28,123 nt of DNA, from IMG/VR virus record IMGVR_UViG_3300020439_000052, positions 1 through 28,123 of that record; one strand, given 5' to 3'. Under the pieces are notes generated by a model, which was given only the letters and a program-made list of their open reading frames with translations, was not told where the DNA came from and ran no database searches. A program made the translations under genes and the position numbers. Positions 1 through 27,600 of the stretch are shown here, in pieces; within the stretch, counting starts at the first letter, position 1; the number at the start of each line of letters is the position of its first letter. The stretch is from a virus.

Positions 1-98
1 ACTTCTGTCAGTTGAATAGCTCGTTCAACTACTGCTACCATTTCTGGGTGGACACCCTCTAGTCGATCTAGAGATCTCTGACTTAATCTAAATGCCAT
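1..98 (-). CDS. Endolysin, peptidase M15 (VanY/T5-endolysin type), N-terminal fragment
   Basis: Only the first 32 codons lie in the window; the rest runs off the left edge. The N-terminus (MAFRLSQRSLDRLEG, then VHPEMVAVVERAIQLTEV) is the typical opening of phage L-Ala-D-Glu or D-Ala-D-Ala peptidases of family M15, which cut peptide bonds in peptidoglycan at lysis. The zinc-binding catalytic residues lie outside the window and cannot be checked. An AGGAAAG ribosome binding site sits before the ATG, overlapping the end of the upstream basic-protein gene, so the two are probably translated from one message. Its place last in a block with a holin candidate and a coiled-coil membrane protein fits a lysis role. 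Family assignment is from the recognisable N-terminal pattern. Confidence 0.8.
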   Translation of the reverse strand, partial: MAFRLSQRSLDRLEGVHPEMVAVVERAIQLTE

Positions 99-102
99 GT
101 TC

Positions 103-639
103 TTACTTTCCTGATTTAATACCTGTGTTTAATTTTTCTGCAGTCTTAAGAAGACCACCTTCGGAATACTGTCTTCCTGCAAGAGTCATCAACGGTTGCC
201 TCAACATAGAAGGTGTAAGCTGTTTTCTATTTCTTCTCCCCCTAGAACCTGTTGCTCCTCTTGCAGAGCGTCCATATCCAAAACCTCCTGGCATTCCTTG
301 CAAAGGTCTAGCTATTCTTGGTCTTTGAGGAGGTTGTGAAATAGGAGTGGGTGCTAGTCCTCTTGGACCTCTAGGTATAATAGATCGTACAGGCCCAGTT
401 CTTTTTGGGGCTTTCTTCAATAATTGCTTATATATTTGTCGTTCTTTATCTGTTAGCTTTCGTGCAGACTTAGCTTGTTTCTGTGCTTTCTTAAAAAGAT
501 CAAGTTGATTTGAAATAGGAATCCCCTTCATCATTCTCTGTTGGTCTGCACGAGTTGCAATACCTACATTGCCTATTGCTTGCCTTGGTCTTCCAACATT
601 ACCTATTGCTTGTCTTGGTTTTCTTAATCGTGATGACAT
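103..639 (-). CDS. Basic, Arg/Pro/Gly-rich protein of unknown function
   Basis: 178 residues, very rich in Arg, Lys, Gly and Pro, with no recognised domain. It opens with two perfect copies of a ten-residue unit (RPRQAIGNVG-like), produced by a 30-bp tandem duplication. A Lys/Gln-rich helical stretch follows (about residues 45-75), then a long Pro/Arg/Gly linker (about 78-135). Such composition suggests nucleic-acid or membrane binding, but this is inference. It sits between the Lys-rich protein (1-base overlap of stop and start) and the endolysin (4-base gap), so it belongs to the leftward lysis-block transcript. It could also be a minor virion or DNA-condensing protein. Confidence 0.75.
   Translation of the reverse strand: MSSRLRKPRQAIGNVGRPRQAIGNVGIATRADQQRMMKGIPISNQLDLFKKAQKQAKSARKLTDKERQIYKQLLKKAPKRTGPVRSIIPRGPRGLAPTPISQPPQRPRIARPLQGMPGGFGYGRSARGATGSRGRRNRKQLTPSMLRQPLMTLAGRQYSEGGLLKTAEKLNTGIKSGK
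566..625 (-). repeat. Two tandem copies of a 30-bp unit inside the basic-protein gene
   Basis: The units at 566-595 and 596-625 differ at only a few bases and keep the reading frame, encoding two copies of a ten-residue RPRQAIGNVG-type peptide near the N-terminus of the 178-aa protein. Replication slippage is the simplest origin. Confidence 0.85.
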
Positions 640-1118
640 TAGCTTGGCCTCTTCTTTGGTTTAATCTTAGGGAAAGGTTTCTTTGGCCTTGGCCTTGGCT
701 TTACAACTTTCTTTTTAGTCTGTGCTTTCTTAACAGCCTTTTTAACACTACTCTTTTGTTGTTTATCTTTAGCTGCAGAAGCAAACCCCATAGGTTTTCT
801 ATCAGGGTTTACTGTAGCTTTACCTGCATTTTTTGCGGCTGCTAATATACTAGTTGCAATAGTCGGTGTTATACCTACTGCAAAACCAGTGCCTCCTGCT
901 TTTACTTCTTGTTTAGCTACAGTTCTGCTTGATCTAACTGCAGGAGCTATTTTTGTTTCACCTGCAGTGTTTGGTCCTTGAAGTAATTTTTTAAACCTAA
1001 CAGGAATGTTCATATTCTGAATCATCTTTTTAGTTAGTTTACTAACAGGCACTCCTGCTTGTTTAGCTGCTGACTTTGCTAAACCTAAAAGTGCTGCTGC
1101 TCCTAGTTGTGCTGCCAT
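639..1118 (-). CDS. Lysine/proline-rich protein with histone H1-like tail
   Basis: 159 residues. The first about 35 residues are Ala/Leu-rich and could form an amphipathic or weakly hydrophobic helix (MAAQLGAAALLGLAKSAAKQ). The last about 45 residues are almost only Lys, Pro, Ala and Arg (for example KKAVKKAQTKKKVVKPRPRP), like the C-terminal tail of histone H1 or bacterial H1-like proteins. A DNA- or RNA-binding role is plausible but unproven; membrane insertion of the N-terminus is an alternative. The start ATG overlaps the stop of the EF-hand gene upstream by one base, showing tight coupling within the lysis block. No named family was recognised. Confidence 0.75.
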   Translation of the reverse strand: MAAQLGAAALLGLAKSAAKQAGVPVSKLTKKMIQNMNIPVRFKKLLQGPNTAGETKIAPAVRSSRTVAKQEVKAGGTGFAVGITPTIATSILAAAKNAGKATVNPDRKPMGFASAAKDKQQKSSVKKAVKKAQTKKKVVKPRPRPKKPFPKIKPKKRPS

Positions 1119-1447
1119 TACCTCATATCCTTTTTCATTGCTATCTTGTTGCCCATTGGCTTACCTGCCATGTATGCTGTCGCTCCCATGTAGGCTGCTA
1201 CAACACCAGTTTGTGCTATGTAGAAAAGACCAAGCAACTCAGCTAGGGCAGAAACTCTTGTGTCTGACATGAGGGGAGTAAAGAGAAAGACTGTGAAACC
1301 TATCATCATTACCATAGCTACCCAAGCCATCTTCTTTTGGGATTCAGCCTTTTCTTCTCGTAGCTCTATCTCGAGCATACGTTCTTTCATGGCTACTTCT
1401 TCTTCTGTGATCTTACCGTCACCATCTACGTCAAAGTCTACTACCAT
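1118..1447 (-). CDS. EF-hand calcium-binding membrane protein, holin candidate
   Basis: 109 residues. Residues 6-17 form a complete canonical EF-hand loop, DVDGDGKITEEE: Asp at positions 1, 3 and 5, Gly at 6, Ile at 8 and Glu at 12. A charged helix follows (about 18-36), then two hydrophobic segments (about 39-60 and 66-93) and a basic C-terminus. Size, two membrane spans, basic tail and position just before the endolysin side of the block fit a class II-type holin; the EF-hand suggests Ca2+ binding on the soluble N-terminal part. It overlaps the next gene upstream by one base (TAATG-type junction). Holin function is inferred from topology and context; the Ca2+ site is read directly from sequence. 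A single EF-hand would usually pair, so a dimer is likely. Confidence 0.8.
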   Translation of the reverse strand: MVVDFDVDGDGKITEEEVAMKERMLEIELREEKAESQKKMAWVAMVMMIGFTVFLFTPLMSDTRVSALAELLGLFYIAQTGVVAAYMGATAYMAGKPMGNKIAMKKDMR

Positions 1448-1716
1448 TATTCCCCTACCACTTCTTTAGTTCCACACAGACGTTCATAAACCATGTCTGA
1501 TGTGTAGGCTTCAGCCCACTTGTTCTCAGTGAAAGTACAGAAATCCCACAAATCGTTTACGTCCTGGTCTAATATTTCTATTTGTTCTTGTTGTTCTGAT
1601 ACTGTGTTCTGTAAATGCTCTATGTCATGTACGAGGTTGCTGATATACCAAACCAAAGCAACCAACTGAACAGCCATTGCAAACACAAGGGCTACTGGAA
1701 TCTTAAGACCGTCCAT
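1447..1716 (-). CDS. Small membrane-anchored coiled-coil protein (spanin-like topology)
   Basis: 89 residues. A single N-terminal membrane segment (about residues 5-27) is followed by a polar Gln/Glu-rich stretch with heptad-like spacing (about 28-60) and a Trp/Cys-containing C-terminus. This is the topology of inner-membrane spanin (Rz-like) subunits, which bridge to the outer membrane at the last step of lysis in Gram-negative hosts. No partner lipoprotein (Rz1-like lipobox) was found nearby, so the role is uncertain. It lies 2 bp after the preceding gene and directly abuts the EF-hand holin candidate. Confidence 0.7.
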   Translation of the reverse strand: MDGLKIPVALVFAMAVQLVALVWYISNLVHDIEHLQNTVSEQQEQIEILDQDVNDLWDFCTFTENKWAEAYTSDMVYERLCGTKEVVGE

Positions 1717-23414: not shown

Positions 23415-23950
23415 TCAACTGACTCCTTTGCCATTAAACCTTTAGGCTTTTCTGCTTGAGTTACATCTTGCATAGCCTCTTCAGCTTCTTCTTCAGGTCT
23501 TTCTTTTACTTCTTCCATGTCTACTTGAGCTAGTGTTTCTTCTATGTTTATACCCATCTTCTCAAGCTTCTTGTTTGATAAAGCAGAGGCACGATCTTTC
23601 CTGAGTTGTGATCTATCCTCTTTCTCAAATCCTGTTTTGTATTCAACATCCAAAGCATCTGCTGCAGTTCTAATGAACTCGTGCATAGTGGGCTGCACTA
23701 TCAAGCTCACGTCTACTGAGTGAATACCTGCCATTACTGCGCTACGAGTAATACCTTCTACTATTGTTTGAATATCAATATCAATCTCTAGGAGGTACAT
23801 AATATCTTCTAGAGTATCAGCATCACTTAACTTAGCTAAGTGAATTGCTAAAGCCTCATCTGGATCAGTAACTTCAGGAGGTCTTTCATAAGGCATATTC
23901 TTTGGAGTGGTTGTTAACGACTGTCCAGGAACAGGTCTATCAAATAACAT
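23411..23950 (-). CDS. Virion-associated protein of marine-phage type
   Basis: 179 residues. The opening MLFDRPVPGQSLTTTPKNMP with YERPPEVTDPDEA is a pattern I recall from structural genes of marine podo- and myoviruses, where it lies beside internal core genes. The middle is helical and the C-terminus is acidic (Glu-rich, about 145-165). The start is shared with the lysozyme stop (TAATG); the end overlaps the 386-aa start as ATGA. Function unknown; may be a scaffold or tail-tube partner. Confidence 0.6.
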   Translation of the reverse strand: MLFDRPVPGQSLTTTPKNMPYERPPEVTDPDEALAIHLAKLSDADTLEDIMYLLEIDIDIQTIVEGITRSAVMAGIHSVDVSLIVQPTMHEFIRTAADALDVEYKTGFEKEDRSQLRKDRASALSNKKLEKMGINIEETLAQVDMEEVKERPEEEAEEAMQDVTQAEKPKGLMAKESVE

Positions 23951-24657
23951 TAATCATATCCTTCTGCAAATAGTTTAGCTTCTGCTTTCCTTCGTTCAAC
24001 GAGACCGTCTAACTTTTTACCATCTGCATAAACGTACTCTAGTATCATGAAAGATATTTCTTCGTCACCTCGAGTTCCTTTTTCAGTTAGTTCATTTAGT
24101 CCACCACGTCCTGCATTATAAGTAAAACTTGCGAGAGCATCTCTTTGATTGTTAGACCAAGTGTAACCATGCTGCTCTGCATGGTCATCAACTATTTTTC
24201 TAGCTTTGGCTAGGTCTTGCTTCATAAGACGTGAAGCTTCTTCTTCACTGATAACTTGGTTAGGTCCAGATGCTTTTGTACCATAACCTATTGAGTATCT
24301 ATTTGGTCCATCTTTGTAAGCATTTGATCTAAAGCTTTCAAAACTTTTGACCATACCTACTATATCCCCTTTTTGTTTTATATCAGGATCATAAAAGTTA
24401 AACTCTTCGTCACTGTACTCGTTTCTAAATTCTTCTGCAGTCTCCCTCATAGTAACCATAGACTTTGCATCTTTCATAAGACGATTAGCCATAGACTCTT
24501 CTGAGACTATTTGTTGAGAGGTTTTCTTCAAACCCTGTCTTTCCATAAGAGCAAGATTTCCTTTAGCTTCTTCTAAACTTTTTATCTTACCTGATTGAAG
24601 ATCGTCAGCTAAGTTGATTGCATTCATATAGAAAGACTGAGTAGGAGTAGTAACCAT
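23950..24657 (-). CDS. Virion-associated lysozyme (GH24, T4-lysozyme type)
   Basis: 235 residues from the ATG with AGG at good distance; an earlier in-frame ATG lies inside the preceding gene. An N-terminal helical part (about 1-95) is followed by a glycoside hydrolase 24 domain: FESFRSNAYKDGPNRYSIGYG gives Glu107, Asp116 and Ser122, in the spacing of T4 lysozyme Glu11, Asp20 and Thr26, with Ser replacing Thr. A NQRDALASFTYNAGRGGL segment, typical of the family's second lobe, follows. It cleaves the glycan chain of peptidoglycan. Its place among core virion genes suggests it works during DNA entry rather than as the main endolysin, which here is of M15 type. Confidence 0.85.
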   Translation of the reverse strand: MVTTPTQSFYMNAINLADDLQSGKIKSLEEAKGNLALMERQGLKKTSQQIVSEESMANRLMKDAKSMVTMRETAEEFRNEYSDEEFNFYDPDIKQKGDIVGMVKSFESFRSNAYKDGPNRYSIGYGTKASGPNQVISEEEASRLMKQDLAKARKIVDDHAEQHGYTWSNNQRDALASFTYNAGRGGLNELTEKGTRGDEEISFMILEYVYADGKKLDGLVERRKAEAKLFAEGYD

Positions 24658-24668
24658 AATAATACCTG

Positions 24669-27600
24669 TTATATACCAAATAAAAGTTTTGTCCAAAGAG
24701 CACCTTTAGCGGTCTTATCGTCACTCTTTAGCTTTAGTCGGACTGCTTCAAGATCTTTATCACCTAATATAATTTGTAAAGCTCTATCTTGTTCTGATTC
24801 ACTAGCAGTAAAAGCAAAAGACATAAGATCCCTTTCTCGTTGCCATATCTGATCCAAGTTTGTAGCTGTTAAAGCATTTATAGTTTGAGCAAAAGCCATG
24901 TTGCTTTCGTTCTGTGCTGCAGTATTTAGGGTTGCTATGTTCTGTCTCCACTGAGCATTTGCTTGTGCAACAACCAAACCATTCTGTGCATTAAACATAT
25001 CTCTTTGCTGTTGTATGTTAGCATTAAATTCTTTTAAAGCATTCACACTATTCACGTTGAACTGCTCAACAGCATTCTTTTGTGAAGCATTGAACTGAGA
25101 AACCTGAGAAGATAAAGAAGCAAAGAACTGATTAGTTTGATTTTCACTGGAAGCATTGAACTGAGCAGCAGCATTTTCTGCAGCTTGATCGGAAAATAAA
25201 GCAGCAATATTCTGTTGTGCTTTAAATATTGTTGTTTGCTGTTCTCTATCTAAATTAGCCATGTCCATTGCTAAAAAGTTTTGAGCATTCTGAACTGCAG
25301 CTTGCTGCCTATTGTTTAAGTTTGCTATGTCTAGGTTGGCTAATGCAGCAGCCTCTGCCATAATTAAAGCTTGAGAGTTAGAAAGATTAGATAGTTCCAT
25401 TGTGTTTGCTGCACGAGAATTTTCTAAAGCAATCTGCATGTCAGCATTAAAGTTCATGTTAGCTATTTCAGATATTTTAGAAGCGTTAATTACACGAGCT
25501 TGAAATGCTTGATCAAACTCTTGCCCCATAAACTTAGCTCTTTGTTCTGCAGCAAGAACAGCCATCTGCTGTTTGTTAGAAAGATTCATTGACTCAAACT
25601 TAGCATTAGTCTGAGCATCCATTTGTGCAATAGGAAGAGCAGCCTCCATAGCAGCCTGGATAACAGCCTGTCCTGCCATGCTCGAAGCACCTAGACCACG
25701 AGCAGAGAGTTGAGCCATAGCTGCTCTCATAGAACCTGCAGCCCAAGCAGGTGTTTCACCACCTTCAAAGTCAGCCATCAAATCTGCTAATTGACCTTTT
25801 ACTGTAGCCTTAGTGCTAGGTGCAGCAGAAGCTGCTTGAACTTCTTCTACGAACTTAGAAGCTTTTTCAGCTTGACCTGTAATATTTCCTTCAACATCAA
25901 TAAGCTCACCGTCTTCAATCTCTCTTTGATTGGGTGCAGTAACTTCAATAGACTCCCCTTGTGCAGCCTTTAGTTTAGAGACTGAACTTTCGTCCTCTTC
26001 TTCTGCTGTTATCTTGGCTCCTTCTCTTATCTCCCCTTCAACAGGATCTAGATCATCTGTTACTTGCTTAACGTCTGCACCCACAGTAGCAGCATCTACA
26101 GTTGTGGGAGCAACTACATTTGGTTGGCTTACTTGCTCAACACTTTCAACTTTTGAAGCTTCTACTTCAGGTGCTGAAGCATCTGTTTGACCTGCTGTTG
26201 ACGCAATAAAGTCTGCTGAGTCAGGCTGAATTTTATCTATGTTAGATTGTGTGGGTTGCATAGTTTGAGACACCAAGCTACCCTGCATATTTTTCATTTC
26301 TTCAGGAGTTGGAACAAGGGTTCCTTCATCTGCTCCCATTCTTTTATTAGACATACCTACCATTGCCTTACGATACTTACCCATACGAGCAGCAGCCTGT
26401 GGGTTAGCAGCAAGAAAGTTTTCAAGCTGACTGTCTGGACCTTCAAAGTCTAACAGTTTTCGTGCTATAGTAGCTTCTACTGCTCCTCCTTTTGGGATTC
26501 CCCCTGGAGAAAAAGCCTGTGTTGTAACTTCAGGTGTGAATCCAGGAGGTACATATACCATAGGTTTTCCTTCCCCATCTACAGAGATCATCATAGTTTG
26601 ACCAGTCATTTTATTTACGTATTTTTTAAGGCCACCAAAACCTTTTTGAGATTTTGAAGTAAGCTCTTCCATAGTTTTACCAGTGTAATTTTTTGTAGCT
26701 ATTGGACTTGGAGTTCCTAAAGAAGACTCATCCTTCGTGTCTACATCTGTGCTAAAAGTTCCTGATACGTCAGTAGTAGGATATGTGCCTGTAACACTGT
26801 CTTTAACAACACCTGGGCCTTCTGTTGTCGCTTCTACCCCTATAGTATCTCCACTTGTTTTTGAATCATCACCTTTAAGTATTTCTTCAGTCTGATCTAC
26901 TACGTCACCTTTTCCTTCAGTGACATCCCCCACTACTCCAGTTTCTGTTTCTCTTTCAACTTCTTTTGTAACATCTTGAGTACTAGGGGTAGACACTGCA
27001 CTAAGACCAGACTTTTTTCTCCAGTCTGAGTAAGACAGGCCATCATCAACAATATCTAAAGTTCCCATAAAATCTTCAAAAGAAGGAATTGGAGAGGAAT
27101 ACTTACCACCTAAATCAATTCCTTGTTCTTGGGCAGCTTTGTTTATTTCACTGTAAATATTTCTTAAAGATGAATCTCTTTGAATTGTTTCGTTATACAA
27201 AGATTTATATGCTTCTTCATCAGTTTTAAGACCCTGACTGTCTTTTACAAATTGTATTGTATTCTTAGAAATTTTATCTAAATTACGATATTCTTTCTGA
27301 GATAAAGCCATTGATAGTTTATTAGCTTTATCATACATTTGTTTACGAGCATCTTCTAGATTATCAGCAGAACCTAAAACTACTCCCTTTGGTCCTACAA
27401 TTTTTGTAGCCCCACTACTATCTGTTTTAATATTGAAAGTACCTTGACCAATACGTATATTTTTATTCGTAATGTGATTTCTATACTGCTCATCTGTATC
27501 AAAGTCTTCACGAGTACGAGCATCAGTTATATAATCATTATACATTTTTGCTCTTGATACAGTTCTTTGTGCCTCTAGAATACCCTCTCTGTCAGACCCA

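Follow-up and report, generated by a model that had tools for sequence, protein, structure and literature searches.

A phage membrane protein joining a conserved EF-hand loop to two transmembrane helices is a candidate calcium-binding holin

What sets the moment at which holins fire has long been asked, and the chief trigger known for them is membrane potential. The lysis block of a 28,123-nt viral contig (IMG/VR record IMGVR_UViG_3300020439_000052; hereafter the window, whose features are read on the minus strand) raises a particular form of this question: what is an EF-hand loop doing at the head of a small membrane protein encoded among lysis genes? We call this protein EFh, for its EF-hand loop and two transmembrane (TM) segments (Table 1).

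Table 1. Positions of EFh, its parts, its neighbours in the window and two protein types found beside its homologs
Feature	Position	Strand	Basis
EFh gene, EF-hand loop plus two-TM membrane protein, 109 aa, MVVDFDVDGDGKITEEEVAMKERMLEIELREEKAESQKKMAWVAMVMMIGFTVFLFTPLMSDTRVSALAELLGLFYIAQTGVVAAYMGATAYMAGKPMGNKIAMKKDMR	1118..1447, stop codon included	-	open frame; PHROG_27150 6e-13; CRP-9 gp72 88% identity
EF-hand loop codons, residues 6-17, DVDGDGKITEEE	1397..1432	-	homolog consensus; synonymous ligand-codon changes
Predicted TM1, residues 40-60	1268..1330	-	hydropathy; AlphaFold2
Predicted TM2, residues 67-94	1166..1249	-	hydropathy, conservation, AlphaFold2
Basic C-terminal tail, residues 95-109	1121..1165	-	5 K/R
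i-spanin-like protein, 89 aa, N-terminal TM plus coiled coil	1447..1716	-	weak Rz-like PHROG matches, E 0.005-0.03
Basic protein, function unknown, between EFh and endolysin	639..1118	-	ORF; no family; 8/150 same-clade loci
Basic protein, function unknown	103..639	-	ORF; weak phrog_16780
M15 (L-Ala-D-Glu peptidase type) endolysin start, cut by window end	1..98	-	translation MAFRLSQRSLDRLEGVHPEMVAVVERAIQLTE; like CRP-9 gp71
phrog_32327-type proteins, examples	L002:3363-3824, L004:5478-5960 and others		
PHROG_30566 proteins, examples	L001:2365-2739; L002:4870-5211; L089:4784-5149		

The complete 12-residue EF-hand loop described in a previous, sequence-only reading of this DNA was indeed present. 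It follows the textbook pattern, and the strict form D.[DN].[DN]G.[ILV]...E occurs once in the six frames of the window, at residues 6-17 of EFh. A chance origin of the loop was ruled out by a shuffle test, in which the strict pattern arose in 9 of 200,000 shuffles of the EFh protein. The incoming (E) helix is nearly absent, with about 5 residues, and for this reason the Pfam model EF-hand_1 (PF00036) scored the window protein at 20.1 bits, under its curated cut-off of 25.4; the same model matched all 10 diverse EFh members tested at E <0.1. When the profile of the EFh family was compared with the PDB, calmodulins came first, aligned on their EF-hands, with a whole-sequence E-value of 6e-10 and an i-E of only 0.03 for the best single EF-hand. 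The ligand pattern of the EFh loop is nearly identical to that of calmodulin EF-hands. Unlike calmodulin, EFh has a single hand, its E helix is short or missing, and the hand is joined to a membrane hairpin.

The two membrane segments and the basic tail that had been read from the sequence were confirmed. Hydropathy, with a cut-off of 1.3 (at 1.6 the TM2 of EFh itself was missed), identified two hydrophobic segments, one from about residue 43 and the other from about residue 67, and it predicted two TM helices in 270 of the 276 unique homologs described below. TM2 has a conserved face of small residues (A85, G88 and A91). AlphaFold2, run on a 77-sequence alignment, predicted helices at residues 15-55 and 62-95 connected by a turn at 56-61 (mean pLDDT 80.9, pTM 0.47), the first of them being one unbroken 41-residue helix that runs from the end of the EF loop through TM1. 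For a DC31-type homolog with a longer N-terminus, the prediction, of low confidence, showed loop positions 7-8 as a strand and residues 10-14 as a short E helix. Foldseek searches gave no informative match. Over 46 homologs, the median number of K/R residues was three before TM1, one in the turn and two in the C-terminal tail, and the positive-inside rule alone favours a topology in which both termini would be cytoplasmic (N-in, C-in).

The gene order of the window agreed with the earlier placement of EFh next to a spanin-like gene and three genes before the M15 endolysin: along the minus strand, an 84-aa gene is followed by the i-spanin-like gene, EFh, the two genes for basic proteins and the start of the endolysin. 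The stop codon of the i-spanin-like gene overlaps the start of EFh (TAATG). The endolysin resembles CRP-9 gp71 (phrog_465 endolysin, 5e-51). As read from their sequences, the endolysins associated with EFh begin without an evident signal peptide and would therefore need a hole-forming partner, namely a large-hole holin and not a pinholin. One of the basic proteins, encoded at 103-639 (-), has a tandem RQAIGNVG peptide repeat at its N-terminus.

The window protein matched PHROG_27150, a family with no function assigned, over residues 3-96, and this family also matched 7 of 10 diverse EFh members; all the homologs belong to PHROG_27150 or are close to it. The EF-hand, the TM-TM layout and the lysis context are additions of this work. 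A tblastn search gave close homologs, at 88-89% identity, in the Roseobacter phages CRP-9 and CRP-1. Weaker matches came from Limnohabitans phage DC31, CRP-207 and Sinorhizobium phages, and second-round queries added CRP-345, CRP-810, the pelagimyophage HTVC008M and the methylophage Melnitz. The known hosts thus include Roseobacter, SAR11, OM43, Limnohabitans and Sinorhizobium, and scans of IMG/VR revealed homologs on hundreds of contigs. The resulting collection comprised 377 loci corresponding to 276 unique proteins distributed in four main clades; the search for the EF-hand-TM-TM architecture, which had been proposed for marine phage genomes, showed it to recur in marine, freshwater and rhizobial phages. 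In two scans of 84,980 bacterial species genomes we detected no real homolog, which makes the EFh family look viral. The sole bacterial match (L377) was an FtsX-like permease frame and was rejected, and a VIT1 match (E 4e-4, under the cut-off, in 1 of 10 members) was judged compositional.

We tested a consensus over the 12 residues (D1, D/N/S3, D/N/S5, G6, I/L/V8, E/D12) and found it in full in 275 of the 276 unique homologs, the exception being cut by a contig end. A set of 46 representatives with <80% identity had a median pairwise identity of 31%. Throughout this set, loop positions 1 and 6 were invariant, as was a glutamine (Q37) before TM1; position 12 was E in 45 proteins and D in the other, only D or N occurred at positions 3 and 5, and only V, I or L at position 8, with drift at positions 2, 7, 10 and 11. 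Mean column entropy was 0.43 bits in the loop versus 1.90 bits elsewhere in EFh. In the close clade, the codons at D1, G6 and E12 varied, but only synonymously, with position 1 encoded by 46 GAC and 46 GAT. These patterns support very strong purifying selection on the loop. Since the searches might have been biased toward loop-bearing homologs, we also used queries restricted to the membrane half of the protein. They retrieved 133 loci, 125 of them with the loop; in four others it was cut by contig ends, three near-identical loci carried a G6N change with the ligands intact, and one (L401:1920-2225, in a T4-like contig beside gp51) had a degenerated loop and an intact membrane half. Homologs lacking the loop in otherwise identical lysis cassettes, which would have argued against the sequence-only reading, were not found among these 133 loci.

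We consider that the loop very probably binds Ca2+. It might instead be structural or filled with Mg2+ and serve, without any sensing function, to stabilise a dimer or the N-terminal helix, which would be compatible with any role in lysis. The single, odd EF-hand, with its short E helix in the clade of the window, and the retention of the loop in freshwater phages (DC31) fit that explanation, but the canonical Ca2+ ligands, E12 among them, never leave their positions and drift is confined to positions such as 2, 7, 10 and 11, which is the pattern of selection for Ca2+ binding. We regard a purely structural loop as rather unlikely.

The genomic surroundings of the homologs provided clues about the process in which EFh takes part. 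We counted only well-flanked loci and considered an endolysin as associated if it was within 1.8 kb of EFh. By this measure, an endolysin accompanied EFh in 74 of 87 loci of the clade of the window, 64 of 64 of the DC31 clade and 34 of 34 of the CRP-345/810 clade. The endolysins were of several types (M15, M15_3, GH108, GH19-like and GH24) and had Rz or u-spanin-like proteins as partners. In the clade of the window, 73 of the 87 loci carried a spanin-like gene and 67 a u-spanin-like gene, with EFh > M15 > u-spanin and spanin-like > EFh > M15 > u-spanin as common orders; in the DC31 clade, EFh > Rz > M15_3 occurred in 42 of 64 loci. With these data, EFh is likely to be a protein of the lysis module. 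Some annotations of neighbouring genes deserve comment. The PHROG_30566 proteins ("unknown function") combine a lipobox signal with a C-terminal TM, which is the layout of a u-spanin. The CRP-207 protein gp73 (L003:3292-3873), deposited as "putative lysozyme", has no lysozyme domain that we could find and reads as an N-terminal TM plus coiled coil, spanin-like. Limnohabitans phage DC33 (L383, PQ492659) bears Inoviridae in its taxonomy line, yet its record is 39 kb long and has a lysis block of tailed-phage type.

Is EFh the holin of these cassettes? Class II holins have two TM segments, as exemplified by S21 of phage 21. Like S21-type holins, EFh is small, with two predicted helices, and is encoded beside an endolysin and a spanin; in the predicted topology it would also share a short outer loop and charged cytoplasmic ends; it differs from class II holins by its EF-hand and by having no detectable similarity to the holins of Pfam and NCBIfam. 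No model of these databases scored above its cut-off (Phage_holin_3_6 reached 15.8 versus 28.4 bits), and GTA_holin_3TM (PF11351) was absent from the Pfam matches of the window protein. The positive evidence came from the cassettes themselves, 144 of which, in the three clades that are not T4-like, have an endolysin and no holin of known type nearby. In the complete genome of CRP-1 (54 kb), the other small frames with at least two TMs were a u-spanin-like gene and an antisense frame only, and a search for PF11351 gave no match, so that EFh (gp56) is the only credible small multi-TM holin candidate seen in this phage. The early region of CRP-9 contains one more two-TM frame, and DC31 has several. 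A protein of the phrog_32327 type, with a soluble domain and one C-terminal TM, lies just upstream of EFh in 33/87, 20/34 and 9/64 loci of the window's, CRP-345/810 and DC31 clades, respectively; it is possible that it is a one-TM holin.

Other families occupy the place of a holin in some related cassettes. In CRP-823 and ctQRb9, which have a similar M15 endolysin, a GTA-type holin is encoded immediately upstream of the endolysin, and in CRP-13 a phrog_2524-like protein is found one gene further upstream of M15; this last assignment was judged by eye against L362. A search for phrog_2524 in nine phage records gave no match, but neither did its control, so that this absence carries no weight. 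GTA_holin_3TM and phrog_2524 proteins are thus encoded in, or close to, the position preceding M15 endolysins; they are a different family from EFh and have no EF-hand, but they are sometimes encoded together with it, in 24 of 34 loci of the CRP-345/810 clade and 5 of 87 of the window's clade, usually directly after EFh. The membrane-half query from CRP-810 retrieved further cassettes of the form EFh > GTA_holin_3TM/phrog_2524 > endolysin. Because a recognised holin is encoded directly downstream, EFh may be accessory there, as an antiholin or partner. Extended to the whole family, this would make EFh a regulator, either an antiholin or a second holin, that senses Ca2+ through its EF-hand and thereby tunes the downstream holin. 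The recurrence of that arrangement with endolysins of different families speaks for it, as does the isolate CRP-810, where gp33-gp32-gp31 include a GTA_holin_3TM at 2.5e-20, but the 144 cassettes devoid of a known-type holin and the lack of another credible candidate in CRP-1 do not, and we find this general explanation unlikely.

A second difficulty comes from the T4-like relatives (82 loci, including HTVC008M, Melnitz and Sinorhizobium phiN3), where EFh is flanked by gp51 and a tape-measure-like gene. The order gp26-like > gp51 > EFh > tape measure was found in 24 of 50 well-flanked loci, and an endolysin within 1.8 kb was recognised in none of the 50. In these phages EFh may either serve as the holin or play another role. 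It could be argued from this location, shared by phiN3, and from the absence of holin HMM matches over cut-off that EFh is not a lysis protein at all, but a Ca2+-binding membrane protein with some other late function (tail-hub assembly, superinfection exclusion or cation handling) carried in gaps between late genes. Nevertheless, podovirus-type and DC31-type genomes, whose endolysins are from several unrelated families, keep EFh next to the endolysin and the spanin, and the homologs of Melnitz and CRP-207 are about 63% identical over 81 aa, which shows that the gene moves as a module between T4-like and lysis-cassette settings. A role outside lysis seems improbable to us. The holin-like character proposed in the sequence-only reading accordingly held for the cassette setting, the two-helix layout and the candidacy in CRP-1, and found no backing in holin families, in the cassettes with a recognised holin beside EFh or in the T4-like location; on balance, we incline slightly towards EFh being the holin itself.

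The following scheme combines an inferred membrane topology with putative holin activity, Ca2+ binding and Ca2+ gating. EFh would be a two-helix hairpin with cytoplasmic N and C termini, and its N-terminal loop would work as a single EF-hand in the cytoplasm, its exit helix running into TM1. Free Ca2+ in the cytosol is very low. Late in infection the protein would accumulate harmlessly, its loop empty or filled with Mg2+, until membrane lesions or a loss of potential admitted Ca2+ and the loops filled. Pairing of odd EF-hands usually goes through loop position 8. Filled loops might pair in this way between neighbouring EFh subunits, and their pairing might tighten or re-orient TM1, spreading the opening cooperatively; the M15 endolysin, which lacks a signal, would then escape and the spanin act afterwards. 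The conserved loop suggests that the release of new viruses may respond to calcium. That EFh is the Ca2+-binding two-helix holin of the window phage, opened through the filling of its cytoplasmic loop, we hold to be an evenly poised proposition, and that Ca2+ changes the timing of lysis we think less likely than not. A widespread class of phage holins gated or sharpened by the direct binding of Ca2+ to a cytoplasmic EF-hand that continues into the first membrane helix, so that Ca2+ entry would feed back positively on lysis among the phages that infect abundant aquatic bacteria, is a doubtful generalisation. Seawater had been put forward as a source of this calcium, a link that is now weakened: freshwater Limnohabitans phage DC31 and Sinorhizobium phages such as phiN3 retain the loop, so that we doubt a seawater-specific role and reject seawater calcium as the selective reason for the loop.

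The components of EFh, an EF-hand and a holin-like two-TM hairpin, are known, whereas their fusion, and the constancy with which lysis cassettes conserve it, appear to be new: we found no description of an EF-hand holin in a literature search largely limited to openly available papers. If EFh is a holin or a holin regulator, its strictly conserved Ca2+ loop would represent a second, chemically addressable input to lysis. EFh is also a lysis-gene candidate for phages without an assigned holin. These include the HMO-2011-type phages, for which the describing paper names no holin (PMC9038755), and Melnitz, for which none was recorded and CsgG, the curli pore, was proposed as a stand-in (PMC9004378).

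Two further features of the window lie outside the EFh neighbourhood. The frame at 23950-24696 (-), within the structural gene block, encodes a phage lysozyme domain (PF00959, 1.9e-23) and its product is probably carried in the virion as a muralytic enzyme distinct from the M15 endolysin. A non-coding AT-rich stretch at 2500-2870 contains three palindromes of the GTTTAAYATTAAAC type, three copies of ACACATTCA...TTGAATA and two of GAGAACGAATCAGGAAC, repeats that are possible operators or an origin.
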